A stretch of 64,000 bases of DNA from Leucobacter allii (GTDB lineage Bacteria; Actinomycetota; Actinomycetes; Actinomycetales; Microbacteriaceae): assembly GCF_022919155.1 (NCBI RefSeq), contig NZ_CP095045.1:434001-498000 (forward strand), read 5' to 3'. This document shows, piece after piece, positions 23,390 through 42,722 of the stretch. Under the pieces are notes generated by a model. It had not been told where the DNA came from, made no database searches, and was given only the letters and a program-made list of their open reading frames with translations. The translations under genes were made by a program, and so were the position numbers. The stretch's first letter is position 1; each line of letters starts with the position of its first letter.

Positions 23390-23397
23390 GACACCTA

Positions 23398-23458
23398 AGC
23401 CTAGGGGACGAGCGCCCGAAGCGCATCGCCTTTCCGAAGAAAAGTGAACCAATGGATC
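23398..23458 (-). promoter_or_regulatory. aspC promoter area and IclR-type operator copy
   Basis: Leftward TAGGCT (23403-23398) precedes the aspC GTG by 8 nt, giving a leaderless start. At 23446-23458 lies GAACC-AAT-GGATC, a one-mismatch copy of the GAACC-N3-GGTTC palindrome found through the neighbouring block. It sits between the end of the IclR gene and the aspC promoter, close to where the block begins. Confidence 0.45.
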
Positions 23459-23476
23459 AAAAATTGCGCGAACGGT

Positions 23477-24316: not shown

Positions 24317-24343
24317 TTTCGAACTATATCAAGCCAACGGTTC
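24317..24343 (-). promoter_or_regulatory. IclR autoregulatory promoter and operator
   Basis: Leftward -10 box TATAGT lies 6 nt before the IclR ATG (leaderless). Just upstream is GAACC-GTT-GGCTT (24343-24331), a copy of the block-wide palindrome with one weaker half. Its position next to the -10 box predicts repression. Confidence 0.55.
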
Positions 24344-24404
24344 ATTTTTCGACGGTCGGGCGACGCGCCTGCGGGTCGGCTCGTGCCGCGGCCGTGCGCC
24401 GACC

Positions 24405-27411: not shown

Positions 27412-27413
27412 CG

Positions 27414-28415
27414 TCAGTCCGCGTCCGCAGCGAACTCGGCGGCGGCGGAAGCGACGATCTCGACGCCGTCGACGTTGCGCACTCCGGCCTCGGTGGTGTC
27501 GAACGGCACGGTGATGTAGCGCTGCTGCACCACGGCCCGCATCGTCTGTGCCGCGGGCTGGGTCTCGATGCGCTCCCGCTTGTCCTCGGCCGTGCTCCAC
27601 GGCGTGTCGACGAGCACGATGACGTCGGGGTCCGCCGCCACGAACGATTCCCACGAGAGGCTGAGCCAGCTCTCCTCGCTCTCGGCCTCGACGTTGCGGA
27701 GCCCGGCGGCCTCCATGATCATGTTGGGGGCGCCGGTCCCCCCGCCGACGAAGGGTGCGTCGTCGCCCGAGCTGTACCAGAGCGCGGTGAGCTCCCGGTC
27801 GGGGCGCTCGATCGCCTCCAGACGCCGCTGCTGCTCGGCGACGAGCTCCTCGGCTCGCTCCTCGGCGCCGAAGATCGTGCCGACCTCCCGGAACATGGCG
27901 AAATCGTCCTCGAAGGTCAGCGCCTCGGGTGCTGCTTCGCCGAAGTCGCACGCTGCAGGCGAGACGTAGCTGCGGATCCCGAGCTGCTCGAGCGCGTCGC
28001 GAGTGCCGGGGCCGTCCGCGGAGAGGTTGGACGCCCATCCGGCGAACACGAGATCCGGGGTCTGACTGACGAGGAGCTCGCGCCCGGGAACGTCGTCGGA
28101 GATCACATTCGGCTCCCACCCCGATGGCAGGAGCTCGTCGGGCAGCGGGCCGTCGAGGAACGCTGAGGCGACGACGCGATCCTCCAGGCCGAGCGCGAGC
28201 ATCAGCTCGAGCGGTGTCGACTTGATCGTGACGACGCGTTCCGGGGTCGGCGAGATCGCAAGATCGGTGTCGCAGTTCCGGATCGTCTGCGACGGTTCGG
28301 TTCCTTCGACCCCGTCCGATTCGGCGACACCCGTCGCGCTGCACCCGGTCACTGCGACGAGCCCGAGCGTGAGAACGACGATTCCCGAGCTTATGAACCG
28401 ATGGTTTGATTTCAT
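27414..28415 (-). CDS. ABC transporter substrate-binding lipoprotein, FecB/BtuF-type
   Basis: 333 residues from ATG 28415 (an alternative ATG at 28436 adds seven). Signal peptide with lipobox V-T-G-C about 25 residues in, then a periplasmic-binding fold: PERVVTIKSTPLELMLALGLEDRVVASAF and, in the second lobe, DPDVIVLVDTPWS. The long helix connecting two lobes fits the metal-chelate/vitamin B12 class. First gene of the leftward operon (binding protein, permease, ATPase, cofD). A copy of the block palindrome (28395-28407) lies in its first codons. Confidence 0.9.
   Translation of the reverse strand: MKSNHRFISSGIVVLTLGLVAVTGCSATGVAESDGVEGTEPSQTIRNCDTDLAISPTPERVVTIKSTPLELMLALGLEDRVVASAFLDGPLPDELLPSGWEPNVISDDVPGRELLVSQTPDLVFAGWASNLSADGPGTRDALEQLGIRSYVSPAACDFGEAAPEALTFEDDFAMFREVGTIFGAEERAEELVAEQQRRLEAIERPDRELTALWYSSGDDAPFVGGGTGAPNMIMEAAGLRNVEAESEESWLSLSWESFVAADPDVIVLVDTPWSTAEDKRERIETQPAAQTMRAVVQQRYITVPFDTTEAGVRNVDGVEIVASAAAEFAADAD
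28395..28407. promoter_or_regulatory. IclR-type operator copy at the binding-protein start
   Basis: GAACC-GAT-GGTTT, one mismatch from the palindromic consensus. It overlaps codons 3-7 of the binding-protein gene if ATG 28415 is the start, a position compatible with a roadblock to transcription. Confidence 0.4.
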
Positions 28416-28586
28416 TCTGCTCGTGATTCCTTCCATGGGGTGAACTCGCTCCTGATTGTCGCACGATGTCGCATCCGTGTCGATATCTCTTGATTCATAA
28501 GGTTTTGATGAGGTTTCTCTTGGCAGTGGGGCTCTGGCTCGAAGCGCTCGGGTGAGCGAATCTCGAATCATGCTTGATTTTGTTTC

Positions 28587-28599
28587 GAACCAGTGGTTC
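28587..28599. promoter_or_regulatory. Perfect IclR-type operator in the divergent promoter region
   Basis: GAACC-AGT-GGTTC is a perfect palindrome 39 nt before the AA_synth start. The region 28437-28637 separates the leftward transporter/cofD operon from the rightward catabolic operon and is clearly AT-richer than the genes around it, so it should hold both promoters. Exact -35/-10 boxes are not certain. Confidence 0.6.
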
Positions 28600-28637
28600 A
28601 CTTACTCGTGGAAGTCGAAGTTATCGAAGGAGATGCG

Positions 28638-29210
28638 ATGGAGCCGCAGGTTCGCAAGATTGTCCGGCACGTGGAGGAACTGCGCGAGGAGAACGGGCGG
28701 GTGCTCGAGCGCCCGCACCGGATCGCGCTCGTCGCGGCGATCCTGAAGAACCCGTTCGGTATCGACGGCTACGTGCAGGATCTCGTGACGCTCGCTGACG
28801 AGCTCGGCGAGGCGGTGGGCGAGTTGGTCGGACCCGAGTGCGTCGCGCTGCTCGATGACGAGGTCGAGGTGTTCGGCAAGGTCGCGTTGGTCGGTGTCGG
28901 CGGTGAGACCGAGCACGGCTCGGCCATCATCCACAATCTGAGGTTCGGAAACGTGTTCCGCAAGGCTGCTGCGGGGACGGAGCTGCTCCCCGCGGCCGAG
29001 AAGGTCGGGCTGATGGGGGCGGCGATCGATGTGCCGTTGAAGCACAAGCTCGACGCGAAGACCCGTTCGCATCACCAGACGTTCACGTTCCGGATCGAGG
29101 ACGCTCCGCGGCCCGACGAGATCGTGATCGGCTGCGTGGCGGGGAACCAGGGCAGGCCGCTCGCGCGGCTGGCGACGTTCGGCTCCGAGGCGCCGGTGTC
29201 GGTGGCCTGA
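28638..29210 (+). CDS. Amino acid synthesis (AA_synth, PF06684-type) family protein
   Basis: 190 residues resembling the AA_synth family: VRKIVRHVEELREENGR, VAAILKNPFGI, LVGPECVALLDD, GKVALVGVGGETEHGSAIIHNLRFGN and the LMGAAIDVPLKHK segment. The biochemical role of the family is not established; members travel with hydantoinases, aminotransferases and luciferase-like reductases. Start ATG 28638 has AAGGAG 6 nt upstream; GTG 28593 would run through the operator and is unlikely. First gene of the long rightward operon. Confidence 0.8.
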   Translation: MEPQVRKIVRHVEELREENGRVLERPHRIALVAAILKNPFGIDGYVQDLVTLADELGEAVGELVGPECVALLDDEVEVFGKVALVGVGGETEHGSAIIHNLRFGNVFRKAAAGTELLPAAEKVGLMGAAIDVPLKHKLDAKTRSHHQTFTFRIEDAPRPDEIVIGCVAGNQGRPLARLATFGSEAPVSVA

Positions 29211-29244
29211 GCGGACGCGTGGACAGCGACGAGTGGAGATGCGC

Positions 29245-30591
29245 ATGAGCACGGCAGCATGGACGAAGGAACAGGTCGCGGAAGCGGATCGCGAGTATGT
29301 GATCCACTCCTGGTCGAAGCAGGGCGGGCTGAACGCGCGGCCGATCGCGGGGGCTTCGGGGTCGTGGTTCTGGGATTATGACGGGAATCGGATCCTCGAC
29401 TTCCAGTCGCAGCTGGTGAACAGCAACCTGGGGCACCAGCATCCCCGGCTCGTGAACGCGATCAAGGAGCAGGCCGACAAGCTCTGCTACATCGGCCCGG
29501 GGTTCGCGGAGGAGTCGCGGGCGAAGCTCGCGCAGCGTCTCGCGGAGATCACTCCGGGGGATCTGCGGATGAGTTTCTTCACCACGGGTGGGGCTGCGGC
29601 GAACGAGAACGCGATCCGGCTCGCGCGTCACGTCACCGGTCGCAGCAAGATCGTGGCCCGATACCGCTCGTACCACGGTGCGACCGCCGGGGCGATCTCG
29701 TTGACGGGTGATCCGCGCCGATGGCAGGCGGAGCCGGGGGTGTCGGGGGTGGTGCGCATGCTCGATCCGTACACGTACCGCTGCCCGGCGGGGCATCCGG
29801 ATCCCTGCCCGGTGTGTTCGGGCGGTCCGCACCTCGAGGAGATCCTGCAGTACGAGAATCCCGAGACGGTCGCGGCCGTGATCCTGGAACCGGTGACGGG
29901 CACCAACGGCCTGATCTACCCCGGCGAGAACTACCTCCGCTCGATCCGTGAGGTCTGCGACACCTACGGGATCCTGCTCATCTTCGACGAGGTCATGGCC
30001 GGCTTCGGGCGCACGGGCGAGCTGTTCGCCTGCAACCACTGGGGTGTGGTGCCCGACATCCTGATCACGGCGAAAGGGCTGAACTCGGGGTACGTGCCGT
30101 TGGGGGCGATGACGGTGTCCGCGGAGATCTCCGAGTGGTTGCACGGTCATAAGTTCTGGGGCGGGCTCACCTATGCCGGGCACCCGCTCGCCTGCGCGTC
30201 CGCGGTCGCGTCGCTGGACATCATGGACGACGAGGATGTCGTGGCAAACGCGAAGCGGCAGGGCGAGCGTCTCGGTGCGGGGCTTGCGGAGTTGGCCGAG
30301 CGCCACGAGTCGATCGGTGAGATCCGCGGTCGCGGACTCTTCTACGGCCTCGAGCTCGTGCGGAGCCGTGAGACGCGGGAACCGCTGGTGCCGTTCAACG
30401 CGGTCGGAGAGGCCGCCGTGCCGATGCAGCGCATCGTGAAGGCGGGGATGGCGAAGGGCCTGTATCTCTCGGCGAACTTCAACGTCATGCGGCTCACCCC
30501 GCCGCTCGTGATCACGGGCGACGAGATCGACTTCGCGCTCGAGATCCTCGACGACGTCCTCACCCTCGCCGACGAGGCGGTGACGGTATGA
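29245..30591 (+). CDS. Class III pyridoxal-phosphate aminotransferase (omega-amino acid type)
   Basis: 448 residues. FFTTGGAAANENAIRLAR (cofactor cup), YRSYHGATAGAISLTGDPRRW, LIFDEVMAGFGRTGELFA (Asp), TAKGLNSGYVPLGAM (Schiff-base Lys), and a C-terminal LSANFNVMRLTPPLVIT. A cysteine-rich insert with three Cys (R-C-P-A-G-H-P-D-P-C-P-V-C) near residue 175 is uncommon. In the proposed pathway it would convert beta-alanine or 3-aminoisobutyrate to the semialdehyde. Overlaps the hydantoinase start by 4 nt. Start ATG 29245 was chosen for GGAG 6 nt upstream. Confidence 0.9.
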   Translation: MSTAAWTKEQVAEADREYVIHSWSKQGGLNARPIAGASGSWFWDYDGNRILDFQSQLVNSNLGHQHPRLVNAIKEQADKLCYIGPGFAEESRAKLAQRLAEITPGDLRMSFFTTGGAAANENAIRLARHVTGRSKIVARYRSYHGATAGAISLTGDPRRWQAEPGVSGVVRMLDPYTYRCPAGHPDPCPVCSGGPHLEEILQYENPETVAAVILEPVTGTNGLIYPGENYLRSIREVCDTYGILLIFDEVMAGFGRTGELFACNHWGVVPDILITAKGLNSGYVPLGAMTVSAEISEWLHGHKFWGGLTYAGHPLACASAVASLDIMDDEDVVANAKRQGERLGAGLAELAERHESIGEIRGRGLFYGLELVRSRETREPLVPFNAVGEAAVPMQRIVKAGMAKGLYLSANFNVMRLTPPLVITGDEIDFALEILDDVLTLADEAVTV

Positions 30592-32030
30592 ACGGGGACG
30601 CCGAGGGCCGACGGATCGCGGTCCGCGGCGGCACGGTCGTGAACGCGGAGGGACGCGTCCGGGCCGATGTCCTGATCCACGGCGAGACGATCGTCGGGAT
30701 CGGGATCGACCAGGGCTGGGAGGCCGACGAAGTCATCGACGCGACGGGCACCTACGTGCTCCCCGGCGGCATCGACGTGCACACCCACCTCGAGTACCCC
30801 ATCGACGGCTTCACGACACGCACGGCCGACGACTTCGCCACGGGATCGATCGCGGCCGTGTTCGGCGGCACGACCTCATTCATCGACTTCGTGAAGAAGC
30901 ATCCGGAACGGACGCTGCACGAGACCTTCGTCGAGCGGCGCGGCGTCGCCGAGGAGAAGAGCATTGTGGACTTCGGGCTCCACGCGATCGTGCCCCCGCT
31001 CGCGCAGCAGCCCGATGCGCACGAGGATCTCCGCCGCCTGCACGCCGAGCAGGGGGTCTCCAGCTGGAAGTTCTTCATGGCCTATCCCGGAACCCAGATG
31101 GTGGAGGACGACGAACTGCTCGCCGGGATGGATCTCGCGCACGAGCTCGGCGCGCTGCCGATGGTGCACGCCGAGAACGGCCACATGATCAATCGCGCGG
31201 TGAAGCAGCTGCTCGACGACGGCAACACCGCAGAAACCTTCCACGCCGAGGCTCATGGCCACGCGCAGGAGGCCGAGGCCGTGCATCGTGCCATCGTGCT
31301 CGCGCAGGAGGTCGGCACGCCGCTCTACGTCGTCCACGTCTCCAGCCGGCACGCCGCCCAGGAGATCGCGGAGGCCCGAGCCGAGGGCGTCCCGGTCTGG
31401 GGCGAGACCTGCCCGCAGTACCTCCTCGCCTCGCGCGAGGACTACGAGGGGCTGGGCGACGCCGCCGCGGGATACATCTGCTCGCCGCCGATCAGGGAGC
31501 GCGCCAATCAGGAGTCCCTCTGGACGTACCTCGGCGCGGACGGCCTGTCGACCCTCGCGACCGATCACGCCGCCTTCTGTATGCATCAGCCCGAGGATCT
31601 GCCCCCGCAGAAGATGCGCTCGCCCGGCTACTTCCCGAAGGTGCCCAACGGGGTGCCCGGCCTCGAGGACCGCATGATGGTGGCGTGGGAGGCCGGTGTC
31701 GTGGCCGGCCGCATCGACCCGTGCCGCTTCGTGGAGGTGACTTCGGCGCGGCCGGCGAAGCTCTTCGGCCTCTACCCGCGTAAGGGCAGCGTCTCGGTCG
31801 GCGCCGACGCTGACATCGTGCTGTGGGATCCGGAGGCCGACCACACGATCACGGCCGAGGGCTCGCACTCGCGCACCGACTACAACCTCTACGAGGGGAT
31901 GCGGGTCAGCGGGCTCCCCGTCACCGTGCTCAGCCGCGGCCGTATCCTCCTGCGCGATCGCAAGCTCCAGGACGCGGCACGGGAGACCCGCGGCCGCTAC
32001 CTGGAGCGCGGGCCGGCGCAGCTGTACTGA
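30588..32030 (+). CDS. Dihydropyrimidinase / D-hydantoinase family amidohydrolase
   Basis: 480 residues of the cyclic amidohydrolase family. The two-zinc centre is complete: His65 and His67 in GIDVHTHLEYP, carboxylated-lysine position Lys161 in SSWKFFMAYPG, His194 in MVHAENG, His250 in YVVHVSS, and Asp326 in LATDHAAF. It opens the ring of dihydrouracil or hydantoins to N-carbamoyl amino acids. Directly followed by reductase, amidase and dehydrogenase genes that would act before and after it. Which cyclic ureide it prefers is not readable. Confidence 0.93.
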   Translation: MNGDAEGRRIAVRGGTVVNAEGRVRADVLIHGETIVGIGIDQGWEADEVIDATGTYVLPGGIDVHTHLEYPIDGFTTRTADDFATGSIAAVFGGTTSFIDFVKKHPERTLHETFVERRGVAEEKSIVDFGLHAIVPPLAQQPDAHEDLRRLHAEQGVSSWKFFMAYPGTQMVEDDELLAGMDLAHELGALPMVHAENGHMINRAVKQLLDDGNTAETFHAEAHGHAQEAEAVHRAIVLAQEVGTPLYVVHVSSRHAAQEIAEARAEGVPVWGETCPQYLLASREDYEGLGDAAAGYICSPPIRERANQESLWTYLGADGLSTLATDHAAFCMHQPEDLPPQKMRSPGYFPKVPNGVPGLEDRMMVAWEAGVVAGRIDPCRFVEVTSARPAKLFGLYPRKGSVSVGADADIVLWDPEADHTITAEGSHSRTDYNLYEGMRVSGLPVTVLSRGRILLRDRKLQDAARETRGRYLERGPAQLY

Positions 32031-32106
32031 CCGCGGGACGCCGCGGCCGCGGCGCCCGCTCACGCAATGACCTTCGAGCCGCGGCTCATGAAAGAAAGGC
32101 AGCACT

Positions 32107-33111
32107 ATGAAAATTCCTCTCGGGATCCATGTCGGTGATCGGATGACGCTTCCGGAGACGTGGGAGGTCGCGGAGTACACCGATCAGCAGGGGTTCGATT
32201 CGTTCTGGGTGGCTGAGGGGCGCATGGCCCGCGACGGCATCGTGCCGGCGGCGATCGTCGCGTCTCGCACGAAGCAGATCCGTATCGGTACCGGGGTCGT
32301 CAACAACAAGAGCCGCAATGTCGCGCTGATGGGGGTGACCTTCAAGACGCTCGACGAGGTGGCGCCGGGGCGTGCGATTCTCGGGATCGGTGCGTGGTGG
32401 GAGCCGCTGGCGACGAAGCTGGGCTCCCCGATCCGCAAGCCGGTCGCGTCGATGCGGGAGTACATCACGATCCTGAAGGAGCTGTTCGACAACAAGACGG
32501 TCACCTTCGATGGCGAGTTCTACCACGTCGACGGGATTCGCTTCGACAGCATGTACCGGGAGAACACCGAGGTGCCGGTGCCGATCTACGTGGGCGCCGT
32601 CGGTCCCAGGATGCTCGAGCTGTCGGGTGAGATCGCCGATGGCGTGCACATGGACTTCCTGTTGCCGCCGTCCTATCTGGTGGGTGCGAAGGAGGCGATC
32701 GATGCGGGGATCGCGAAGCGTACCGATGGGAAGACGGAGATCGACCTCACCCAGATCATCGCGTGCAGCGTGAACGATACGGATCCGCAGGAAGCGATCG
32801 ATGCCTGCAAGGCGTTCTTGACGCTGTATCTCATGCAGCAGCCGCATATCGCGGCGCACTCGGGGGTCGAGCCCGAGCTGGTGGAGCGGATCCAGGAGAT
32901 CGCGGGCTGGCCCGCGACCAAGGAGGACATCAAGCGTGCGATGCAGCTCGTCCCGAACGAGCTCGTGCAGAACGTGACGGCGTGCGGGTCCACCGGCACC
33001 GTGGTGGAGAAGCTGCTCGAGTATCGCGAGGCGGGCGTGCGCGTGCCGGTGATCTCGACGCACGGCGACCATCATCAGACGCTCGTGAACATCACCGAAG
33101 CGCTGCAGTAG
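32107..33111 (+). CDS. Luciferase-like oxidoreductase, probable F420-dependent reductase
   Basis: 334 residues of the LLM/Mer-like TIM barrel: AEYTDQQGFDSFWVAEGRMARDGIVPAAIVASRTKQIRIGTGVVN, FKTLDEVAPGRAILGIGAWW, VPVPIYVGAVGPRMLELSGEIADGVHMDFL. Its size and closeness to methylenetetrahydromethanopterin reductase favour coenzyme F420 over FMN, and the next gene makes F420H2. It lies between a hydantoinase and an F420 reductase, so I propose it reduces the ring substrate (pyrimidine-like) before hydrolysis. AAAGG precedes the ATG. Cofactor assignment is inference. Confidence 0.87.
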   Translation: MKIPLGIHVGDRMTLPETWEVAEYTDQQGFDSFWVAEGRMARDGIVPAAIVASRTKQIRIGTGVVNNKSRNVALMGVTFKTLDEVAPGRAILGIGAWWEPLATKLGSPIRKPVASMREYITILKELFDNKTVTFDGEFYHVDGIRFDSMYRENTEVPVPIYVGAVGPRMLELSGEIADGVHMDFLLPPSYLVGAKEAIDAGIAKRTDGKTEIDLTQIIACSVNDTDPQEAIDACKAFLTLYLMQQPHIAAHSGVEPELVERIQEIAGWPATKEDIKRAMQLVPNELVQNVTACGSTGTVVEKLLEYREAGVRVPVISTHGDHHQTLVNITEALQ

Positions 33112-33125
33112 AGAAGGGGAAGCCG

Positions 33126-33794
33126 ATGACGATCGCAATCGTTGGAGGATCCGGGCCGCAGGGCAGCGGGATCGGGGTGCGGCTCGCCGCCGCGGGGGAG
33201 CGGGTCGTGCTCGGCTCCCGTGACGCCGCTCGGGCGGTCGCCGAAGCCGAGCGCCTCAGCGAGGCTCACGGGCTCCGCGGATCCCTCACGGGGGCTGCGA
33301 ACCGGGACGCCGTCGAAGCGGCGGATACCGTGATCCTCGCCGTCCCCTACACGGGCCACACCGAACTGGTCGAGAGCCTCGCGGTGCCGCTCAGCGGCAA
33401 GCTCGTGATCAGCTGTGTGAACCCGCTCGCGTTCGACAAGCACGGTCCCGTCGGGGCTGAGATCCCGGATCGCAGCGCCGCCGAGGAGGCCGCGCGCCTG
33501 CTCCCGGAGAGCGTCGTCGCGGGCGCATTCCATCACCTCTCGGCGGTGACGCTGCACCGGCTCGAGCACGATCTCAGTCACGAGGACGTCCTCGTGTGCG
33601 GTGACGATCAGGCGGGCAAGGAGCGCGTGATGCGTCTCGCCGAGCAGGTGACGGGGGGCCGCGCCATCGACGTCGGCGCGCTGCGCCTCGCGCGCCATCT
33701 CGAACCCTTCACCGCGGTGCTGATCTCGGTGAACAAGCGGTACAAGACCAACGCCAGCGTCTCGCTGACCGGTATCGGAAAGGGGGAGAAATGA
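33126..33794 (+). CDS. npdG: NADPH:coenzyme F420 oxidoreductase
   Basis: 222 residues with the Fno N-terminus AIVGGSGPQGSGIGVRLAAAGERVVLGSRD (Rossmann nucleotide loop and NADPH-phosphate-binding S-R), DTVILAVPYTGHTELV, KLVISCVNPLAFD and VVAGAFHHLSAVTLHRLE. It transfers hydride between NADPH and F420; here it would supply F420H2 to the preceding reductase. Start ATG 33126 has GGGGAA upstream. Four-base overlap with the amidase gene. Confidence 0.92.
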   Translation: MTIAIVGGSGPQGSGIGVRLAAAGERVVLGSRDAARAVAEAERLSEAHGLRGSLTGAANRDAVEAADTVILAVPYTGHTELVESLAVPLSGKLVISCVNPLAFDKHGPVGAEIPDRSAAEEAARLLPESVVAGAFHHLSAVTLHRLEHDLSHEDVLVCGDDQAGKERVMRLAEQVTGGRAIDVGALRLARHLEPFTAVLISVNKRYKTNASVSLTGIGKGEK

Positions 33795-34624
33795 AACTGG
33801 CAGCTCTGCAGGTGAGCGCGAGCGAGGATCGCGACGACACGATCCGGCGTACCGGTGAACTGATCGATGAGGCCGCGAGGCAGGGCGCGGGGGTGCTGCT
33901 GCTGCCCGAGTTCTTCGCGATCCCGTTCGTGCAGCCCGACCCCGACCCGGGGTATGTGACGTGGGCGGAGCGGATGGACGGCCCGTCGAATACGCTCGCG
34001 CAGCAGAAGTCGGCCGAGCACGGGATGACGGTCGTGTCCTCGTTCTTCGAGGGCACCGACGTGCCCGGCGTGTTCCACAACACCTCGGTCACGTTCGTTC
34101 GCGGTGAGGCGCGGCAGGTGTATCGCAAGTCGCATCTCCCGTTCTCCAACGGGTTCCCGGAGAAGTTCTACTTCCGACCCGGGCAGGAATCTCCATCCGT
34201 GGTCGATGCGGGGGATGTGAAGCTGGGGACCATCATCTGCTACGAGCGGCACTTCCCCGAGCTCTCTCGCACGGTCGCGCTGGCCGGGGGCGAGGTGCTG
34301 TGCGTGCCGGTCGCGTCCGCGTCCGCGCCGATGAAGGAGGTGTTCCAGCTCGAGTTGCGCGCGCACGCCGTGTTCAACCAGTTCTTCGTGATCTGCTCGA
34401 ACCGGGTCGGGCTCGAGGGCACGAAAGACTACTTCGGGCTCAGCGCGGTCTACGGTCCCGATGGCACGATCCTCGCCCAAGTGCCGGATGGCGAGGAGGG
34501 CGTGGCGGTCGCTCAGGTCGACCTCGAAGAGATGCGTGCCGCGCGCATGCGCCGCCCGTTCTTCCGCGACCGCCGCCCGGAGCTCTATGGTTCATTAGGA
34601 GAGGAGCCGGCCGGCTCCCGCTGA
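33791..34624 (+). CDS. Carbon-nitrogen hydrolase, probable N-carbamoyl amino acid amidase
   Basis: 277 residues of the nitrilase fold with Glu40 (LLLPEFFAIPF), Lys113 (YRKSHLPFSNG) and Cys150 (IICYERHFPE). The arrangement is like beta-ureidopropionase and N-carbamoylputrescine amidase. Placed after the hydantoinase, it would remove CO2 and NH3 from the N-carbamoyl product, yielding beta-alanine or a related amino acid. Sequence around the cysteine differs from the two other nitrilase-family proteins here (5437-6291 and 41606-42466), so it is not a simple duplicate. Confidence 0.92.
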   Translation: MKLAALQVSASEDRDDTIRRTGELIDEAARQGAGVLLLPEFFAIPFVQPDPDPGYVTWAERMDGPSNTLAQQKSAEHGMTVVSSFFEGTDVPGVFHNTSVTFVRGEARQVYRKSHLPFSNGFPEKFYFRPGQESPSVVDAGDVKLGTIICYERHFPELSRTVALAGGEVLCVPVASASAPMKEVFQLELRAHAVFNQFFVICSNRVGLEGTKDYFGLSAVYGPDGTILAQVPDGEEGVAVAQVDLEEMRAARMRRPFFRDRRPELYGSLGEEPAGSR

Positions 34625-34636
34625 GCCAGGAGACGC

Positions 34637-36097
34637 ATGGAGCCGACAGTGCATCGCGACGAGCTCTTCATCGGGGGCCGTTGGATCGGCGCCGCCGCGA
34701 GGCGGCGCCGATCGGTGACCGATTCGAACACCGGTGAGATCCTGGGATCGTATCCGCTCGCCGAAGTCCCGGATCTCGACGCCGCGGTCGCAGCCGCCGA
34801 GGCTTCGCTGCGCGACCGCAGCGGGTGGGGCGGCTATCCCGGGATGCAGCGCGCCGCGGTGATGCGGCGGTTCGCCGACGCGATCGAACGCCGCCGCGCG
34901 CCGCTCGGAGAGCTGATCAGCCGTGAAGTGGGGACGCCGATCGCCCGGTCGATCTACAGCAACGTCGACACCGCGGTCGAGCTTCTGCGCTTCTACGCGA
35001 GCGTCATCGAACGCACCCCGATCGAAGATCTCCGCGGCGCCGAGCGTGGGTTCTCGATCGTCCGCCGTGAGGCGGTCGGCGTCGTCGGCATGATCGGCCC
35101 GTGGAACTTCCCGCTGAGCACCCTCTTCTTCAAACTCGCCCCCGCGCTCGCCGCCGGGTGCACCGCGATCGTGAAGCCGGCGTCCGACACGGCGCTCGAC
35201 TCGTACTTGATCGCCGAGGCCGCCATCGAAGCCGATCTGCCGCCCGGCGTGCTGAACATCCTGCCGTGCGCGCACGAGACGGCCTCACGTCTGGTGGCGC
35301 ATCCCGGGGTGAAGATGATCGCCTTCACGGGATCCACACCGGTGGGCCGGGAGCTCTCGACCGTCTGCGGCGGGCTCCTCAAGCCGGTGACCCTGGGGCT
35401 CGGCGACAAGTCGGCGGCGCTGCTGCTCGAGGACGCCCCGCTCGAGCGCTTCCTCGCGGAGCTGCACGACCTGAGCTTCTCGAACAACGGCCAGGCCTGC
35501 TCGAACAACTCCCGGATCATCGTGCCGGCCTCGCGCTACGACGAGATCGTCGACGGCATCGTGGAGGAGGTGTCGTCGTGGCGGATCGGCTCCTCGCTCG
35601 ACCCCGAGAGCCGGATCGGGCCGCTCGTCACCGAGGAGCATCGCGCGTTCGTCGAGCGGCACACCGATCGGGCGGTGCGCGAGGGCGCGCGGATCCTCAC
35701 CCGGGGCGCGCGGCCGGATCGTCCGGGCTACTTCGTCGCGCCCACCGTGCTCGGTGAGGTGACGCCCGAGATGACGGTCTTCCGCGAGGAGGTCTTCGGG
35801 CCGACCGTCTCCGTCACCCGGTACAGCGGTGATCCGGAGGAGGGGGTGCGCCTCGTGAACGATTCCGCCTACGGCCGTGCGGGAGCGGTGTTCACCGAGG
35901 ATGAGTCGGTCGGCATCGACATCGCGCGCCGCATCGACACCGGCGCGGTCGGATTCAACATGTACAACTTCGATATCCATGCCCCCTTCGCGGTGCGCAA
36001 GGACTCCGGGATCGGATTCGAACTCGGAGCCGAGGCCATCGACGTCTACCTGAACTACAAGACGATCTTCACGCCGGCCGTGCCCGCCGGATTCTGA
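34637..36097 (+). CDS. Aldehyde dehydrogenase family protein lacking the usual catalytic glutamate
   Basis: 486 residues with ALDH landmarks: [38 protein letters not shown], catalytic Cys288 in [11 protein letters not shown], and [11 protein letters not shown]. The E-L-G-G-K motif reads G254-L-G-D-K, so the general-base Glu is Gly and the adjacent Gly is Asp. The 34-residue distance between this position and Cys288 equals the normal spacing, so the alignment is firm. It may act as a CoA-acylating or otherwise altered semialdehyde dehydrogenase. Good AGGAG before the ATG. Confidence 0.9.
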
Positions 36098-36111
36098 ACG
36101 GAGCTCAGACC

Positions 36112-36864
36112 ATGCAGATCCTCCCCGTCGACGGCCTTCCGGAGTTCGCCCCCGGCGTCTCGATCGCGCGGGAGATCGCGGCGGTCGGCGAGGTGCAGCC
36201 CGGCGACATCCTCGTGGTGACGAGCAAGATCGTCTCGAAGGCCGAGGGGCGCTTCCTCCCGGCGTCCGAGAAGGCACGGGCGCTCGCGGCGGAGACGGTG
36301 CGCGTGGTGGCCGCGATCCCGGGCGGCGGAGCCTCGGCCATCGTGGAGAACCGCCTGGGGTTGGTGATGGCCGCGGCCGGTATCGACGAGAGCAACGTCG
36401 AGGGGGAGCGGCTGCTGCTCCTGCCGCAGGATCCGGACGCCTCGGCCCGTGCGATCGCGGAAGAGGTCGAGCGGCTCACCGGATGCCTCGTCGGGGTGCT
36501 GATCAGCGACACCGCGGGCCGACCGTGGCGCGTCGGCCAGACCGACATGGCGATCGGGGCGGCTCGCGTGCAGGTCATCGACGACGTGCGCGGCACGACC
36601 GACGCGAACGGCAAGCCGCTCGCGGTCACCCAGCGCTGCATCGGCGACGAGCTCGCTGCGGCCGCGGATCTCGTGAAGGGCAAGGCCACGGGGGTGCCGG
36701 TGGCGATCGTCCGGGGGCTCGCGCACTACGTCGGCGTCGGGTTCACGGCGGGTGCGCGCTCCATCGTCAGAGATCCCGAACAGGATCTCTTCCGCCTGGG
36801 GACGGCCGAGGCGATCGCCGAGGGACGCCGGCGGAGGGAACGCGCGCCGGGGGACGACGCGTAG
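36112..36864 (+). CDS. cofE: Coenzyme F420-0:L-glutamate ligase, single-domain form
   Basis: 250 residues matching CofE and the N-terminal half of Fbi[85 protein letters not shown]. It adds the gamma-linked glutamate tail to F420-0. Mycobacterial FbiB carries an extra C-terminal FMN-binding domain; it is absent here, as the gene ends right after the ligase domain and the next gene starts in its stop codon. Confidence 0.93.
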
Positions 36865-37550
36865 TGGACGCCGCGCTCTGGCACGCCGTCGTCCCGATCC
36901 GGAGCTTCGGATCGGGGAAGCAGCGCCTGCGCGCAGTCGCGAGCGGGCCCGCGGTCGACGCCGTCGCAGAACGCCTCGCGCTGCGCACGCTCGACGCGCT
37001 CGAGGGCGCCTCGCGAGTCGCGGCGAGCTGGGTGGTGACCGACGAGGAATCGGATCGCTTCGCGGGGCTCAGACGCGTGGAAGTGCTGCGCGAGGCGCGC
37101 GCGGACGGGTTGAACTCCGCGGTGCGACGGGGTCTCGAGGCGGTGCGGGAGCGCGCGCACGGGCGGGAGGAGCCGCGAATCCTCGTGCTCCACGCCGACC
37201 TCCCCTTCATCACTCCGGAGGCGATCGACGCCGTGCTGCGGCGCTGGGAGCTCTCCGCTGCCGACGCCTACGTGCCGGATCGCCGGGGAGACGGGACCAC
37301 CGCGCTCGGGTACCACCCCGGGAGCGCGCGGCCTCCGATGTTCGGGCCGGGATCCGCCCGCCGGCACTCGGAGGCCGGATTCGCCCGCACCCGGCTCCCC
37401 GAGGCGCATCCGCTCCGTTCGGATCTCGATACGCGGGATCAGCTGGTGCAGTACCTGCGCTCGGGCGCGGCGGATGCGCTCGACGGGGTGATCCGCGGGC
37501 TCGATCTCGGGCTGCACGAGTGCGGTCCGGCGCGTTCGACGGCGGCGTAG
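36864..37550 (+). CDS. cofC: 2-phospho-L-lactate/phosphoenolpyruvate guanylyltransferase
   Basis: 228 residues from GTG 36864, which overlaps the cofE stop by one base. CofC/FbiD features: WHAVVPIRSFGSGKQRL at the N-terminus (nucleotide-binding loop), DGLNSAVRRGLEAV, VLHADLPFITPEAI (metal-binding Asp), and a later DGTTALGYHPG. It activates phospholactate or PEP with GTP for CofD. With cofD (24405-25415) and cofE this completes the F420 tail pathway apart from FO synthesis. Confidence 0.92.
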   Translation: MDAALWHAVVPIRSFGSGKQRLRAVASGPAVDAVAERLALRTLDALEGASRVAASWVVTDEESDRFAGLRRVEVLREARADGLNSAVRRGLEAVRERAHGREEPRILVLHADLPFITPEAIDAVLRRWELSAADAYVPDRRGDGTTALGYHPGSARPPMFGPGSARRHSEAGFARTRLPEAHPLRSDLDTRDQLVQYLRSGAADALDGVIRGLDLGLHECGPARSTAA

Positions 37551-37776
37551 GCGGGCGCTCGGCCTCGCGCACGACCGCCGCACGCCCGGCGCACGGCATC
37601 AGGAAGGGCCAGGCGGACAGCCGCGCATTCTCGGTATTCCAATTTGTGAACCGTTAGTTCTTTTCTGCGCTGGATCGATTCTGTTGCCGGTGCATTACAT
37701 AAATAAAAAGTAGTATCGCTCCCACTCAAAAGGCTGTATCTTAAACAGAACCAACGGTTCATATACGGGAGTTGCA
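37551..37776 (+). promoter_or_regulatory. Promoter region of the second ABC importer with two operators
   Basis: A 226-bp gap, AT-rich from about 37630. It holds GAACC-GTT-AGTTC (37648-37660) and the perfect GAACC-AAC-GGTTC (37748-37760), about 100 bp apart. A possible -10 box TATCTT (37737-37742) would start transcription at or inside the second palindrome, so IclR-type repression is expected. GGGAG precedes the permease ATG by 6 nt. Confidence 0.6.
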
Positions 37777-38715
37777 ATGACGCAGACCACAATCAGAGAA
37801 CGCCCGCCGTCCCAGTTGCAGCGGGCGTCGGAGCACCGAGCACCGGGGCGCCCGAACGTGTTCGCGCCGATCCTCCGCATCCTCGCCATCGCGATCGGGG
37901 TGCTGGTCGCCGTCGTCGTCCTCTGGGAGGGGTACAAGGCGCTCGGGCAGGCGACGGGCGACAAGATCCCGTTCACCGCGATCCCGCTGCCGGTCTCCAC
38001 GTCCGACTACGCGATGCCGCACATCCTCACGATCCTGTCGGTGCTCGCCGAACCCACGAGCGGGGCCTCGGGCCAGTCGCTCTTCGTCTACCTCATGCAG
38101 CAGCTCTCGGTGACGCTGCGCGAGGCCGGGCTCGGCCTGCTCATCGGCGCGGTCATCGGGTGCGGGCTCGCGGTGCTGCTGCGCGAGATCATCGTGCTGA
38201 GCCGCGGGCTCCTGCCCTGGCTCGTGATGTCGCAGACCATCCCGCTGGTGGCGCTCGCGCCGATCATCGTGGTGTGGGCGGGGGCCGCCGGGCTGCCGAG
38301 CTGGGTCGCGGTGACCGTGATCTCCGCGTACCTGTCCTTCTTCCCCGTGGTCATCAACATGCTCACCGGCCTCAACAGCCCGAAGCCCGTGCAGCTCGAA
38401 CTCATGCAGTCGGTCTCGGCCTCGCGGTGGCAGATCCTGTGGTGGCTGCGCTTCCCCTCGGCGGTGCCGAACCTGTTCACCGGCCTCCGCCTCGCCGCGA
38501 CGGCCTCGGTGATCGGCGCCATCGTGGGCGAACTCTCTGCCGGCACCGGCCTCGGTATCGGCCGCGCGATCCTGACCGCCGCCTACTACTACAGCAATTC
38601 GCCGGAGACCCTGTTCGCGGCCGTGCTCATCGCGTCGCTCGGCGGTGTCGTGTTCGTTCAGATCATCACCCTCATCGAGGTGCTCGTTCTCAGGAAGAGG
38701 AATATCAATGGTTAG
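37777..38715 (+). CDS. ABC transporter permease (nitrate/sulfonate/thiamine-precursor class)
   Basis: 312 residues with six to seven membrane helices and the BPD-type EAA loop (LELMQSVSASRWQILWWLRFPSAVPNLFTGLRLA). A long N-terminal cytoplasmic tail precedes helix 1. It is one of two different permeases in this importer, so the channel is a heterodimer. The class imports taurine, sulfonates, thiamine pyrimidine or riboflavin. Overlaps the ATPase gene by 8 nt. Confidence 0.92.
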   Translation: MTQTTIRERPPSQLQRASEHRAPGRPNVFAPILRILAIAIGVLVAVVVLWEGYKALGQATGDKIPFTAIPLPVSTSDYAMPHILTILSVLAEPTSGASGQSLFVYLMQQLSVTLREAGLGLLIGAVIGCGLAVLLREIIVLSRGLLPWLVMSQTIPLVALAPIIVVWAGAAGLPSWVAVTVISAYLSFFPVVINMLTGLNSPKPVQLELMQSVSASRWQILWWLRFPSAVPNLFTGLRLAATASVIGAIVGELSAGTGLGIGRAILTAAYYYSNSPETLFAAVLIASLGGVVFVQIITLIEVLVLRKRNING

Positions 38716-39496
38716 CGCAATCTCAATTCAGAACGCGAGCAAGACGTTTCACGTCTCCGGCAAGTCGATCCCGGCGCTCGACGACATCACGCTGGACATC
38801 CCCGAGGGGGCGTTCGTCTCGCTGCTCGGACCGTCGGGGTGCGGCAAGAGCACCCTGCTGCGCGTGATCGGCGATCTCATCGATCCCGACGGGGGCACGG
38901 TCTCGATCCTCGGCAAGAACGCCCGCGCGGCGCGGCAGGATCGCGACTACGGCATGGTCTTCCAACAGCCGGGGCTCATGGACTGGCGCACGATCCAGAA
39001 GAACGTCGAGCTCCCCCTGCAGGTGGCCGGAGTCAAGGCGGCCGAGCGAGCGGCGCGTGCGCAGGAACTGCTCAAGCTCGTGCGGCTCGAGGGCTTCGAG
39101 AACCACCGCCCGGGTCAGTTGTCGGGGGGCATGCAGCAGCGCGCCGCGATCGCGCGCGCCCTGTCCTTCGAACCCAAGATCCTCCTGATGGACGAGCCGC
39201 TCGGCGCGCTCGACGAGATGAACCGAGAGTACCTGCAGCGCGAGCTGCTGCGCATCTGGCAGTCCACCGGCACCACGATCGTGTTCGTCACGCACAGCGT
39301 CTCCGAGGCGACCTTCCTCTCGACCGAGGTCGTCGTGATGTCCCCCCGGCCGGGCAGGGTCGCCGAGCGGATCCCGATCGATCTGCCGTACCCCCGAGTC
39401 GACGAGACCCGCACCTCCGAGGAGTTCTACCACGCGGAGACTCGCGTGCGCGAGGCGCTCCACTCGGTGCTCGAGCCCACGACGGCCGGCGTCTGA
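38708..39496 (+). CDS. ABC transporter ATPase (SsuB/ThiZ class)
   Basis: 262 residues from ATG 38708: Walker A GPSGCGKSTLLRV, Q-loop MVFQQPGLMDW, signature LSGGMQQRAAIARAL, Walker B ILLMDEPLGALD, H-loop FVTHSVSEA. Matches the nitrate/taurine/thiamine-precursor importers. Flanked by two permease genes with 8-nt and 1-nt overlaps. Confidence 0.94.
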   Translation: MVSAISIQNASKTFHVSGKSIPALDDITLDIPEGAFVSLLGPSGCGKSTLLRVIGDLIDPDGGTVSILGKNARAARQDRDYGMVFQQPGLMDWRTIQKNVELPLQVAGVKAAERAARAQELLKLVRLEGFENHRPGQLSGGMQQRAAIARALSFEPKILLMDEPLGALDEMNREYLQRELLRIWQSTGTTIVFVTHSVSEATFLSTEVVVMSPRPGRVAERIPIDLPYPRVDETRTSEEFYHAETRVREALHSVLEPTTAGV

Positions 39497-40311
39497 TGAC
39501 GGCGACGCAGGCAGTCTCGCTTCCGGCGAGCGGAAAGAACTCCAGAGCGGCGGAGCGGCTCAGGTCGTTCCTCCCTGCGATCGTGGTCGGGCTGGTCGTC
39601 CTGATCCTCTGGGAGGGCATCGTGCGGCTCGCCCAGGTGCCGTCGTTCATCCTCCCGGCGCCGTCGGACGTCATCGCGACGTTCTTCTCGCGGTTCGGCG
39701 AGCTCATGTCGGCAGCGCGGGTCACGACGGTCGGCGTCTTCGGCGGCATCCTGATGGGCGGCGCCCTCGCCGTCATCGCCTCGCTCATCGTGAGCCTGTT
39801 CGAGCGGTTCGCGAAGACGGCGCTCGTGCTCGTCGCCATCATCAGCTGCGCCCCGGTCGTGGCCCTCGCCCCCATCTTCAACGCCTGGTTCGGTGCGACC
39901 AACATCTTCTCGAAGATCTCGGTGGCGGCGATCATGGTCTTCTTCCCCGTGATGGTGAACACCACGCGGGGGCTGCTCGCCGTGACGCCCCTGCACCGGG
40001 AGCTGCTCGACTCGCTCGGCGCCTCGCGGGGCCAACTGCTGCGTTTCGTGCGGATCCCCGGTGCGCTGCCGTCGCTCATCGACGGGCTGAAAGTCGGATC
40101 GACCCTCGCGGTCATCGGCATCATCGTCGCGGAGTACTTCGGCGGAACGGCGAACGCGCTCGGCGTGATGATCGCGAACTCCGCGGCGCTCTCGCAGTTC
40201 AGCCTCACCTGGGCCGCGGTCTTCGCCGCGAGCATTCTGGGCCTCACCGCCTACGGATTGGTGCTCCTGCTCGGCCGTACCGTCGTCCCCTGGAAGCAGA
40301 CGGCGCTGTGA
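39496..40311 (+). CDS. ABC transporter permease, second subunit
   Basis: 271 residues, six membrane helices, with the coupling loop RELLDSLGASRGQLLRFVRIPGALPSLIDGLKVGSTLA. Forms the channel with the permease at 37777-38715. Start ATG 39496 shares one base with the ATPase stop. The longer open frame upstream is another frame of the ATPase gene. Confidence 0.92.
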   Translation: MTATQAVSLPASGKNSRAAERLRSFLPAIVVGLVVLILWEGIVRLAQVPSFILPAPSDVIATFFSRFGELMSAARVTTVGVFGGILMGGALAVIASLIVSLFERFAKTALVLVAIISCAPVVALAPIFNAWFGATNIFSKISVAAIMVFFPVMVNTTRGLLAVTPLHRELLDSLGASRGQLLRFVRIPGALPSLIDGLKVGSTLAVIGIIVAEYFGGTANALGVMIANSAALSQFSLTWAAVFAASILGLTAYGLVLLLGRTVVPWKQTAL

Positions 40312-40363
40312 CCGGCCTCACCCCATGCAATACCCCATCACCCGTTCGGAAGTAAGGAAAACA

Positions 40364-41521
40364 ATGATGTTTCAGAGCAGAGGAGTCCGTTCGGCTCTCT
40401 CGATCGGCGCGGCCGGTCTCCTGGTCGCCAGCCTCGCCGGCTGCGGCAGCATGTCCGAATCCACCGACACCTCAGTCGCGGCGTCGAACGCGGATTGCGA
40501 GCAGATCGACAAGGTCACCGTGGTGCTCCAGTGGGTCGCGCAGGCGCAGTTCGCCGGCTACTTCGCGGCGGCCGACGAGGGCTACTACGCCGACCAGTGC
40601 CTCGACGTCACCATCCAGGAGGGCGGCACGAACGTCGTCCCCCAGCAGGTGCTCGCCTCGGGCAACGCGCAGTTCGCCGTCAGCCACGTGGTGAAGAGCA
40701 TGGCCTCCCGTGAGGAGGGCGCCGACATCGTGAACATCTCGCAGGTCTTCCAGCGCGGTGCGTACCTCGAGGTGGCCTGGGCCGATTCGGGCATCGAGAC
40801 GCTGCAGGACTTCACGGGCAAGAAGGTCGGCTCCTGGGGCGCTGGCAACGACCTCACCCTGCGCGCCGCGCTCGAGGGCGAGGGCGTCGATTTCGACAAG
40901 GACTTCGAGATCGTTCAGCAGCCCTTCGACATGTCGCTGCTGCTCAACCGCGAGGCCGATGTCGTGCAGGCGAAGACCTACAACGAGTTCGCGCAGCTGC
41001 TCGAGACGGTGAACCCCGACACCGGCGAGCTGTACCAGCCGGAGGACTTCAGCGTGATCAATCTGCAGGAGCTCGGATACCAGACGCTCGAGGACGGCGT
41101 CTACTCGAGCAGCAAGTGGCTCGAGGAGGGCGACAACGCCGATGTCGCCGCGCGCTTCCTCGCCGCGACATACGAGGGCTGGGCGTTCTGCCGCGACGAT
41201 GCCGAGAGCTGCGTGCAGTCGGTGCTCGATCGGGGCAGCGCGCTGGGAGCGACCCACCAGACCTGGATGATGAACGAGGTGAACAAGCTCATCTGGCCGA
41301 ACCCGAACGGCGAGGCGATCGGGACGCTCGATCCCGATGCGTGGGATCAGACGATCGAGGTCGCGATGGGCGGCGGCGTGCTCAGCGAGGCACCGGACGA
41401 CGGCGCGTCCCGCTCGGACATCCACGAGGCGGCGCTGAAGCTGCTCGAGGACACGGACGTCGACGTGGTCGGCGACGACTTCGAGCCGATCGAGGTGGAG
41501 CTCACCGAGGGCGGCAAGTAG
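40364..41521 (+). CDS. ABC transporter substrate-binding lipoprotein, NMT1/THI5-like
   Basis: 385 residues, signal peptide with lipobox L-A-G-C, then VTVVLQWVAQAQFAGYFAAADEGYYADQCLDVTIQEGGTNVVPQQVLASGNAQFAVSH, typical of the NMT1/THI5-like class that binds thiamine pyrimidine (HMP derivatives), riboflavin or other ring compounds. In this setting it is the likely receptor for the pyrimidine- or hydantoin-like substrate, or for a flavin-like F420 precursor. Start ATG 40364 with AAGGA 5 nt upstream. Confidence 0.92.
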   Translation: MMFQSRGVRSALSIGAAGLLVASLAGCGSMSESTDTSVAASNADCEQIDKVTVVLQWVAQAQFAGYFAAADEGYYADQCLDVTIQEGGTNVVPQQVLASGNAQFAVSHVVKSMASREEGADIVNISQVFQRGAYLEVAWADSGIETLQDFTGKKVGSWGAGNDLTLRAALEGEGVDFDKDFEIVQQPFDMSLLLNREADVVQAKTYNEFAQLLETVNPDTGELYQPEDFSVINLQELGYQTLEDGVYSSSKWLEEGDNADVAARFLAATYEGWAFCRDDAESCVQSVLDRGSALGATHQTWMMNEVNKLIWPNPNGEAIGTLDPDAWDQTIEVAMGGGVLSEAPDDGASRSDIHEAALKLLEDTDVDVVGDDFEPIEVELTEGGK

Positions 41522-41536
41522 GTTTCAGGTATCTCA

Positions 41537-41573
41537 GGGGATCCGGCGGCGCGGGACGCGGCGCCGGATCCCC
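41537..41573 (+). terminator. Terminator after the ABC importer operon
   Basis: Perfect 12-bp stem GGGGATCCGGCG (41537-41548) with CGCCGGATCCCC (41562-41573) and a 13-nt loop, 15 nt after the binding-protein stop. The next gene begins 32 nt later, so some readthrough may occur. Confidence 0.7.
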
Positions 41574-41605
41574 GCTTCTGCGAGCGCGAGAGGCGGCTCA
41601 GACGA

Positions 41606-42466
41606 ATGAATCAGCAGAACGGCACGGGCGACGGGATCACGATCGCGTGCGCGCAGATCGATCCTCAGATCGGTGACATCGAGGGAAACATCGACCGCTG
41701 CGAGGTCGCGATCCGCGGCGCGGCGGAACGCGGCGCCGACGTCGTCGTGCTCCCGGAGTGCGCGAGCGGCGGATGGGCCTTCGCCGATCGCGGGGAGTCG
41801 GAGCGCGCGGCGCAGCGGCTCGAGGGCGGGCCGACGATCGCCGCCTGGCAGCGCCTGGCATCGGAGCTCGGCATCTGGGTGTGCGGGGGCTTCGGCGAGC
41901 TGACCGCGGATGGCGGGCTCTTCAATAGTTCGGCGCTCATCGCGCCGGACGGCGTGAAGGGCCTCTACCGCAAGGTGCATCTGTGGAACACGGAGAACCT
42001 GGCGTTCGATCCGGGCGATCTGGGGTACCCGGTGGTCTCCACCCCCTTCGGCCGCGTGGGGATGCTGATCTGCTACGACGCCTGGATCCCCGAGAGCTTC
42101 CGCAGCCTGGCCGTGAAGGGCGCCGATCTGGTGCTCGCGCCGAGCGACTGGGTGCCGAACCCGCGGCAGCCGGCCGATGTGCCGCCGCTCGCGCACATCA
42201 TGGTCATGGCGGGCGCGCACAGCAACCAGCTGTACGTCGCCGCAGCGAGCCGGTGGGGGAACGAGCGCGGGCAGCAGTTCATCGGGCGCAGCGTCATCGC
42301 CGATCACTCCGGCTGGCTCCTCGCCGACGCCGGATCGGGCGAAGAGGTCATCACCGCGGTGATCGATCCCGTCGGGAGCCGGTCTGATCGCAGGAACGAT
42401 CCGTTCAACCGTCCGCTCGGCGATCGGAGGGTCTCGCAATACGATCTCGGCGAGGTCGTCTCATGA
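41606..42466 (+). CDS. Carbon-nitrogen hydrolase (nitrilase superfamily)
   Basis: 286 residues with Glu51 (VVLPECASGGW), Lys123 (YRKVHLWNTEN) and Cys156 (LICYDAWIPE). Very similar in layout to the enzyme at 5437-6291. It is the last gene of the block before trnW and stands behind a terminator-like hairpin, so it may be separately expressed. Function is amide or ureide hydrolysis; the substrate is not assignable. Shine-Dalgarno sequence is weak. Confidence 0.9.
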   Translation: MNQQNGTGDGITIACAQIDPQIGDIEGNIDRCEVAIRGAAERGADVVVLPECASGGWAFADRGESERAAQRLEGGPTIAAWQRLASELGIWVCGGFGELTADGGLFNSSALIAPDGVKGLYRKVHLWNTENLAFDPGDLGYPVVSTPFGRVGMLICYDAWIPESFRSLAVKGADLVLAPSDWVPNPRQPADVPPLAHIMVMAGAHSNQLYVAAASRWGNERGQQFIGRSVIADHSGWLLADAGSGEEVITAVIDPVGSRSDRRNDPFNRPLGDRRVSQYDLGEVVS

Positions 42467-42597
42467 GGCGACGTTCCCGGGGATGCGCCCGGTTCGACAC
42501 GGGCCGCCGCATCGCGTAGAGTGTTCCTCGGTAGTTGACTTCTGCCAGAATTTCCTATGCCCGAAGGCGCAGGGAGCGCGAGGGGTCGATGCACCAT

Positions 42598-42670: not shown

Positions 42671-42722
42671 CCGATCCGGCCCGGTGCCCAGCACCGGGCC
42701 GGGCAGAGGAAAGGACGGGCGA

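Follow-up and report, generated by a model that had tools for sequence, protein, structure and literature searches.

The 64,000-nucleotide window analysed here (Leucobacter allii, complete genome of 3.56 Mb, contig NZ_CP095045.1, positions 434,001 to 498,000) carries an island of genes that we read, with a probability of roughly 0.7, as a reductive pyrimidine degradation pathway in which the first step would depend on the reduced deazaflavin cofactor F420H2. The known reductive (Pyd) pathway employs PydA/PreTA, the dihydropyrimidinase PydB, the beta-ureidopropionase PydC, a beta-alanine aminotransferase and malonate-semialdehyde enzymes; the island would encode a variant of this route with a new first step. 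The protein proposed for that step is a luciferase-family protein (hereafter LLM) resembling Mer, the F420-dependent methylene-tetrahydromethanopterin reductase.

A rightward row of fourteen genes (28638-42466, in window coordinates) runs from an AA_synth protein through a class III aminotransferase, a dihydropyrimidinase, LLM, NpdG, a nitrilase-family amidase, an aldehyde dehydrogenase, CofE and CofC to an ABC (ATP-binding cassette) transporter (permease, ATPase, permease and NMT1-type binding protein) and a second nitrilase. From the same intergenic region a leftward arm encodes a putative ABC transporter for an F420 precursor (three genes), followed by CofD and a regulator of the IclR type. 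The genes listed in a preliminary description of the region, prepared from the sequence without database searches, were all recovered in place by NCBIfam and Pfam profile matches, whereas AA_synth, the ABC transporter with its NMT1-type binding protein, the second nitrilase and the divergent CofD/transporter arm are additions to it. The single operon that it had proposed is likely given the intergenic gaps of 0-84 bases (by coordinates) but unproven, and a gap of 226 bases separates CofC from the transporter genes.

In the proposed scheme, the ABC transporter would import the pyrimidine base and NpdG would reduce F420 with NADPH, upon which LLM would move the F420H2 hydride onto C5=C6 of the uracil or thymine ring to give the 5,6-dihydropyrimidine. 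Ring opening by the hydantoinase would then give N-carbamoyl-beta-alanine (or the methylated compound), from which the nitrilase-type amidase would set free beta-alanine along with CO2 and ammonia. Malonate semialdehyde would arise through the class III aminotransferase and be oxidised by the aldehyde dehydrogenase, with AA_synth perhaps helping. The divergent transporter would bring in a deazaflavin precursor, probably Fo, and CofC, CofD and CofE would finish F420. The sequence itself shows the protein families, their intact catalytic residues, the conserved linkage, the insertion site and a complete genome in which neither PreA nor RutA is over cut-off and CofH is absent; we infer F420 as the cofactor, the substrate, each of the reactions, the transported compounds and any roles of AA_synth and the second nitrilase.

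The proposed first step and the enzymes that follow it

The preliminary description had noted that a flavin/iron-sulfur dihydropyrimidine dehydrogenase was not visible, and this holds for the genome: its one DHO_dh protein is located apart from the island and its translation reads, by eye, as PyrD. The genome search for PydA/PreTA-type and Rut enzymes that it had proposed gave neither PreA/PydA nor RutA over cut-off in this genome, RutA having no match at E<=1e-60. The PreA model (NF006183) was also run against 36 genomes carrying an LLM cassette (this one and 35 from the scan described below, with L004 left out) and passed its cut-off in none; weaker matches occurred in all 36, the best at 145 bits against a cut-off of 335. 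Among 14 control genomes, two passed the PreA cut-off and two gave a RutA match. The rival uracil enzymes covered were PreA and RutA; the oxidative (barbiturase) and URC pathways lie outside this search.

LLM is Mer-like but falls far below both Mer cut-offs (PRK02271, 161 vs 276 bits; TIGR03555, 156 vs 349 bits). At E<=1e-5 it has 23 NCBIfam matches, 18 of them labelled F420 or Mer, with Mer at the top and the RutA model absent. Of the 19 PDB sequences that match it at E<=1e-4, the best 11 carry titles of F420 enzymes, and the first 15 rows of a fold comparison are likewise F420 enzymes, Mer being the closest, followed by Adf and FGD. These nearest characterised relatives would place LLM in the F420-dependent branch of the luciferase-like family. 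In the parts of PMC11094777 consulted, Asp96 of M. jannaschii Mer is described as contacting the pterin; this residue aligns with Trp98 of the window LLM (position counted by hand in the alignment), and 15 aligned actinobacterial and haloarchaeal LLMs share the motifs [AG]E[GS]R, GAWW[ED]P and QQPHI. Invariant in the family are Glu37, Arg39, Trp97, Trp98, Gln244 and His247. The tryptophan in place of Mer Asp96, together with motifs of the family's own, suggests that a cofactor platform like that of Mer here serves a different substrate. The relatives of LLM are named in the sources only "LLM class flavin-dependent oxidoreductase" or "5,10-methylenetetrahydromethanopterin reductase".

Catalytic residues are intact in the enzymes of the following steps. 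The dihydropyrimidinase keeps the presumed metal ligands and carbamylated lysine, as do 31 of 31 relatives, in agreement with the complete metal site described earlier; eight checked residues are kept in all 31 and a ninth, taken as the substrate Asn, in 29. The presumed E-K-C triad is intact in the amidase and in 35/35 relatives, as is the presumed PLP (pyridoxal phosphate) lysine in 35/35 aminotransferases. For the carbamoyl amidase assigned earlier, the nitrilase family and the triad are seen, but the best NCBIfam model, AguB, is far below its cut-off (183 vs 410 bits), and the nearest solved structure is the N-carbamoylputrescine amidase 5h8i. The aminotransferase belongs to a subfamily without assigned function (PRK06062) and its nearest solved relative is the taurine:2-oxoglutarate aminotransferase 6jix (389 bits; the next scores 267), while none of the 25 NCBIfam models listed for the aldehyde dehydrogenase reaches its cut-off. 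The NADPH:F420 reductase and cofE named in the preliminary description pass their cut-offs, and cofC has TIGR03552 as its best match, though slightly below cut-off.

AA_synth (PF06684) is the sole copy in the genome. According to the portion of PMC7913881 consulted, its relative TgnF is said to stimulate the oxidation of succinate semialdehyde, and no such stimulation was seen with HcdD, another AA_synth member. In view of TgnF, a helper role in the oxidation of malonate semialdehyde would fit and is perhaps that of AA_synth. The nearest solved relatives of the second nitrilase are PH0642 (1j31) and the nitrilase 3ivz.

Recurrence of the gene set in Actinobacteria and haloarchaea

Two LLM peptide patterns were run against genome_contigs, described as covering 84,980 species, and returned 59 stretches, of which 37 were relatives, making up 36 loci with titles that are all actinobacterial; since the patterns are strict the true number is at least 36, LLM is present in all by construction, and several loci are short contigs. 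On the LLM strand, the aminotransferase and the amidase were each found in 35 of the 36 loci, the dihydropyrimidinase in 31 and AA_synth (>=200 bits) in 29. Counting either strand, an IclR-type regulator (>=100 bits) occurred in 31/36 (26 of these on the LLM strand), the binding protein (>=240 bits) in 23/36, the second nitrilase (>=140 bits) in 19/36 and NpdG (>=90 bits) in 17/36. This same-strand recurrence shows that the association of the genes exceeds chance. NCS1-like symporters (>=810 bits to that of L003) are present in L003, L005, L029, L052 and L054, and the two that were scanned are over the TIGR00800 cut-off. CofE was found in 35/36 cassette genomes and, among 54 Leucobacter genomes, in 5/5 of those bearing LLM and 1/49 of the others. 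Leucobacter luti and L. chironomi are among the strains that carry the cassette.

The contig L023 holds, besides a cassette, a second and more distant LLM adjoining an MlrC-like M81 metallopeptidase, together with a reverse-strand set of hydantoinase, amidase and binding protein (9125-16600).

A tblastn search of plasmids gave 22 haloarchaeal records with LLMs 38-41% identical, of which eight contexts were read. Three of these (Haladaptatus pallidirubidus, H. caseinilyticus and Natronorubrum bangense) are of a pyrimidine type. LLM adjoins a Zn-dependent hydrolase that in both of the cases scanned exceeds the cut-off of TIGR01879 (hydantoinase/carbamoylase). Also present are a methylmalonate-semialdehyde dehydrogenase annotated as CoA-acylating, a class III aminotransferase, for which the two scanned score 464 and 452 bits with PRK06062 (cut-off 472), and an amidohydrolase of the hydantoinase type, whose best model, TIGR02033, gives 240-336 bits vs 393 and which lies about 4 kb away in Natronorubrum. 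Both Haladaptatus sets include an annotated cytosine permease (TIGR00800, 181 bits vs 353 in the one scanned). As the haloarchaeal carbamoylase belongs to another family than the window amidase, the set was assembled separately around the same LLM. The earlier suggestion that an F420-type LLM replaces the dihydropyrimidine dehydrogenase has the support of most of the comparative tests, namely the single DHO_dh protein of the genome, the PreA search, the F420 structures, the co-occurrence with CofE and the haloarchaeal contexts.

Three further contexts (Haloarcula marismortui, Haladaptatus halobius and Natrinema halophilum) are purine-like, with LLMs about 40% identical to that of the window, amidohydrolases that are SsnA-like and allantoinase/hydantoinase-like but score below cut-offs, a PALP enzyme, a Zn-dependent hydrolase and a protein annotated as D-aminoacylase, and with npdG about 6 kb away in one case. 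The remaining two fit neither type. The purine-like sets resemble the reductive uric acid pathway as set out in the sections of PMC12507026 consulted, although the Haloarcula PALP enzyme scores as threonine synthase over cut-off (231 vs 167), which speaks against the likeness. The haloarchaeal plasmids L040, L048 and L050, which bear LLM, SsnA-like, D-aminoacylase, Zn hydrolase and PALP genes, are a candidate for an F420-dependent reductive purine pathway in archaea.

Alternative explanations and known systems

Several observations are exceptions to the proposed pathway or weigh against a uracil-only reading of it. RutA is over its cut-off in three of the 36 cassette genomes, which leaves room for another substrate, and one cassette genome has no CofE match. 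Four Nocardioides loci (L019, L020, L021 and L035) are without a close dihydropyrimidinase, and a frame resembling thiamine pyrophosphate (TPP) enzymes recurs in all four; in L019 the aminotransferase and LLM are separated by a TPP enzyme of the acetolactate synthase family, the amidase is followed by a glutamate dehydrogenase, and the only hydantoinase nearby, on the other strand, is a distant one. AA_synth and the second nitrilase are two unexplained genes, the latter without a place in the scheme. Apart from the CofE case, these points would be accommodated if the same chemistry acted on another substrate, LLM reducing a different unsaturated cyclic ureide or imide (e.g. a substituted or fused pyrimidine-dione) and not free uracil or thymine, and the related haloarchaeal LLMs in purine-like clusters would agree with this; the preliminary description had itself named a cyclic ureide as the alternative. 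We nevertheless consider it unlikely: an aminotransferase of the taurine kind, the methylmalonate-semialdehyde dehydrogenase of the archaeal pyrimidine type and the NCS1 permeases fit uracil or thymine best, and the other uracil enzymes searched, PreA and RutA, are both below cut-off in the L. allii genome.

Two further readings concern LLM itself. An oxidative opening of the ring by LLM as a flavin-dependent monooxygenase, in the manner of RutA or of the trigonelline enzyme TgnB, seems very improbable given the F420 enzymes that lead its profile and fold matches, the NpdG, CofC, CofD and CofE genes in the island, the way CofE tracks LLM, and the dihydropyrimidinase, an enzyme needing a reduced ring, on the LLM strand in most loci. 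LLM could instead be an F420-reducing dehydrogenase for a downstream intermediate (semialdehyde or alcohol), the ring being reduced by an unknown enzyme elsewhere; many F420 enzymes of the LLM family are dehydrogenases, Adf and FGD follow Mer in the fold comparison, and zinc alcohol dehydrogenase genes are present in several cassettes. NpdG, however, usually supplies F420H2 from NADPH in aerobes, LLM is closest to Mer, a reductase, PreA is over cut-off in none of the 36 cassette genomes, and in both the pyrimidine-type and the purine-like sets the haloarchaeal LLM stands at the place expected of the ring reductase, so that we give this explanation little credence.

The island is like the Pyd system in its order of functions after the first step, in a dihydropyrimidinase over cut-off, in a taurine/beta-alanine-type aminotransferase and in an aldehyde dehydrogenase. 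It differs in having a Mer-like F420-type LLM and NpdG instead of PydA/PreA, an amidase of the nitrilase type, and genes for F420 completion and precursor import. RutA, which also acts as a luciferase-family enzyme at the first step on uracil, is oxidative and uses FMN (flavin mononucleotide) and O2, unlike the reaction proposed here. The Pyd enzymes are named in the consulted text of PMC12507026, whose authors propose, as putative, an F420-dependent luciferase-family yanthine reductase in the reductive uric acid pathway of Chloroflexota. There, as here, a luciferase-family F420 enzyme would stand in for a flavin or iron-sulfur reductase on a uracil-like ring, putatively in both; that system is a purine pathway, whereas the island is a pyrimidine-type set in Actinobacteria, and the two are likened by description and not by sequence. 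That text also describes a matching split, with PydA on the pyrimidine side and its homologue UacX on the purine side. SSGG-03002 and NpsU are described, in the passages of PMC10714638 consulted, as putative oxidoreductases, dependent on F420/FMN, in the biosynthesis of mureidomycin and napsamycin, SSGG-03002 being tied to uracil C5=C6 reduction by gene disruption and nuclear magnetic resonance while an in vitro assay failed. Unlike the island LLM these serve antibiotic biosynthesis, and the likeness drawn here is one of reaction. Our literature search found no description of this F420-linked pyrimidine pathway.

More broadly, and at about even odds, a family of F420H2-dependent pyrimidine-dione reductases, sharing the three motifs given above, may replace flavin/iron-sulfur enzymes of the PydA type in pyrimidine (Actinobacteria, haloarchaea) and purine (haloarchaea) breakdown, and the Leucobacter island (Fo importer, CofC, CofD, CofE and NpdG, no FbiC) may let a genus otherwise nearly without F420 scavenge the deazaflavin of its neighbours for one catabolic pathway. 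If true, bacteria outside the methanogens would have a defined job for F420 in nitrogen and carbon catabolism, reduction of the uracil ring would have a new enzymatic solution, and there would be a possible answer to pyrimidine degradation in Actinobacteria lacking PydA or Rut. F420 may then be a scavenged cofactor, the genome being unable to make the precursor that the island seems to bring in, and the function of a poorly named LLM group becomes directly testable.

Cofactor supply, origin of the island and neighbouring features

CofD is the only PF01933 match in the genome, and a CofH match is absent from the complete genome. The best NCBIfam match for each protein of the divergent transporter is a model of a putative F420-0 ABC transporter (TIGR03868, TIGR03869 and TIGR03873), all three below cut-offs. 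The presence of CofC, CofD and CofE without CofH suggests that this transporter would import Fo rather than the F420-0 of the models' name. The combination of CofC, CofD, CofE and a TIGR03868-type transporter without CofH is seen in the island (CofD and the transporter within 24405-28601) and in L074, and the same set occurs in Ruicaihuangia.

The island lies between an aspC-like gene and tRNA-Trp, 19.1 kb apart in the window. Among eight single-contig Leucobacter genomes free of the cassette, tRNA-Trp and the end of the aspC-like frame are 159-424 bases apart in five, and 1.7-5.3 kb of other DNA fills the gap in three (gaps approximate, frames being read from stop to stop). The G+C content of the island is 68.8% (flanks, 73.7% and 73.1%). 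In the LLM tree the Leucobacter group joins Gordonia desulfuricans (99/99) and Arthrobacter (97/97), apart from four other Microbacteriaceae; LLM was detected in five of the 54 Leucobacter genomes and, with the five best candidates scored in each, in 3 of 398 Microbacteriaceae genomes drawn. Another Leucobacter (G433, L052, L071) has the same block with neither aspC nor secE-nusG adjoining in the DNA fetched, and with an NCS1 symporter and a zinc alcohol dehydrogenase between the amidase and the aldehyde dehydrogenase. Taken together, the empty sites, lower G+C, LLM tree, patchy distribution and differing location point to horizontal gain; no attachment repeat was found at the island.

Features of the island in window coordinates, with profile scores in bits
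Feature	Position	Strand	Evidence
Island	23453..42597		between aspC-like gene (22190-23452) and tRNA-Trp (42598-42672)-secE-nusG
IclR-family regulator, BhcR-like	23477..24316	-	NF045644 97, below cut-off 350
CofD, F420 biosynthesis transferase	24405..25430, start approximate	-	TIGR01819 244, cut-off 257
Putative F420-precursor ABC transporter, ATPase	25412..26338, start approximate	-	in open reading frame 25412-27193; best NCBIfam TIGR03873 210, cut-off 372
Putative F420-precursor ABC transporter, permease	26335..27417, start approximate	-	best match TIGR03869 310, cut-off 437
Putative F420-precursor ABC transporter, binding protein	27414..28430, start approximate	-	best match TIGR03868 354, cut-off 392
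AA_synth (PF06684/DUF1185) protein	28638..29210	+	PF06684 172; ATG start, GAAGGA upstream
Class III aminotransferase, proposed beta-alanine aminotransferase	29233..30591	+	PRK06062 567, cut-off 472
D-hydantoinase/dihydropyrimidinase	30588..32030	+	TIGR02033 513, cut-off 393
Mer-like luciferase-family reductase (LLM), proposed F420H2-dependent uracil/thymine reductase	32107..33111	+	
NpdG, NADPH:F420 oxidoreductase (electron supply)	33126..33794	+	TIGR01915 193, cut-off 150
Nitrilase-family amidase, proposed N-carbamoyl-beta-alanine amidase	33791..34624	+	PF00795 178
Aldehyde dehydrogenase, proposed malonate-semialdehyde dehydrogenase	34637..36097	+	PF00171 434
CofE, F420-0:glutamate ligase	36112..36864	+	TIGR01916 224, cut-off 181
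CofC-like guanylyltransferase	36864..37550	+	TIGR03552 99.7, cut-off 105, best match; GTG start overlaps cofE stop
ABC permease 1, SsuC/TauC-like	37777..38715	+	PF00528 66
ABC ATPase	38708..39496	+	Walker A and ABC signature, read by eye in translation only
ABC permease 2	39496..40311	+	PF00528 in open reading frame with same end
NMT1/THI5-like ABC substrate-binding protein	40325..41521	+	PF09084 122
Second nitrilase-family amidase	41606..42466	+	PF00795 170

The aspC-like/tRNA-Trp-secE spot (22190-42672) is a likely insertion hot spot. Elsewhere in the window, an LLM of the CE1758 FMN family (16512-17696; TIGR04036, over cut-off) is not close to the island LLM, and its relatives lie near the same site in four of the eight cassette-free Leucobacter genomes. 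A PF02133 permease of the cytosine/purine/uracil/allantoin type (8795-10258) lies outside the island, and at 45395-53602, adjoining the ribosomal protein L1 gene, are a protein kinase, a 2001-residue protein with Big_9 Ig-like domains and a MoxR-type AAA protein.

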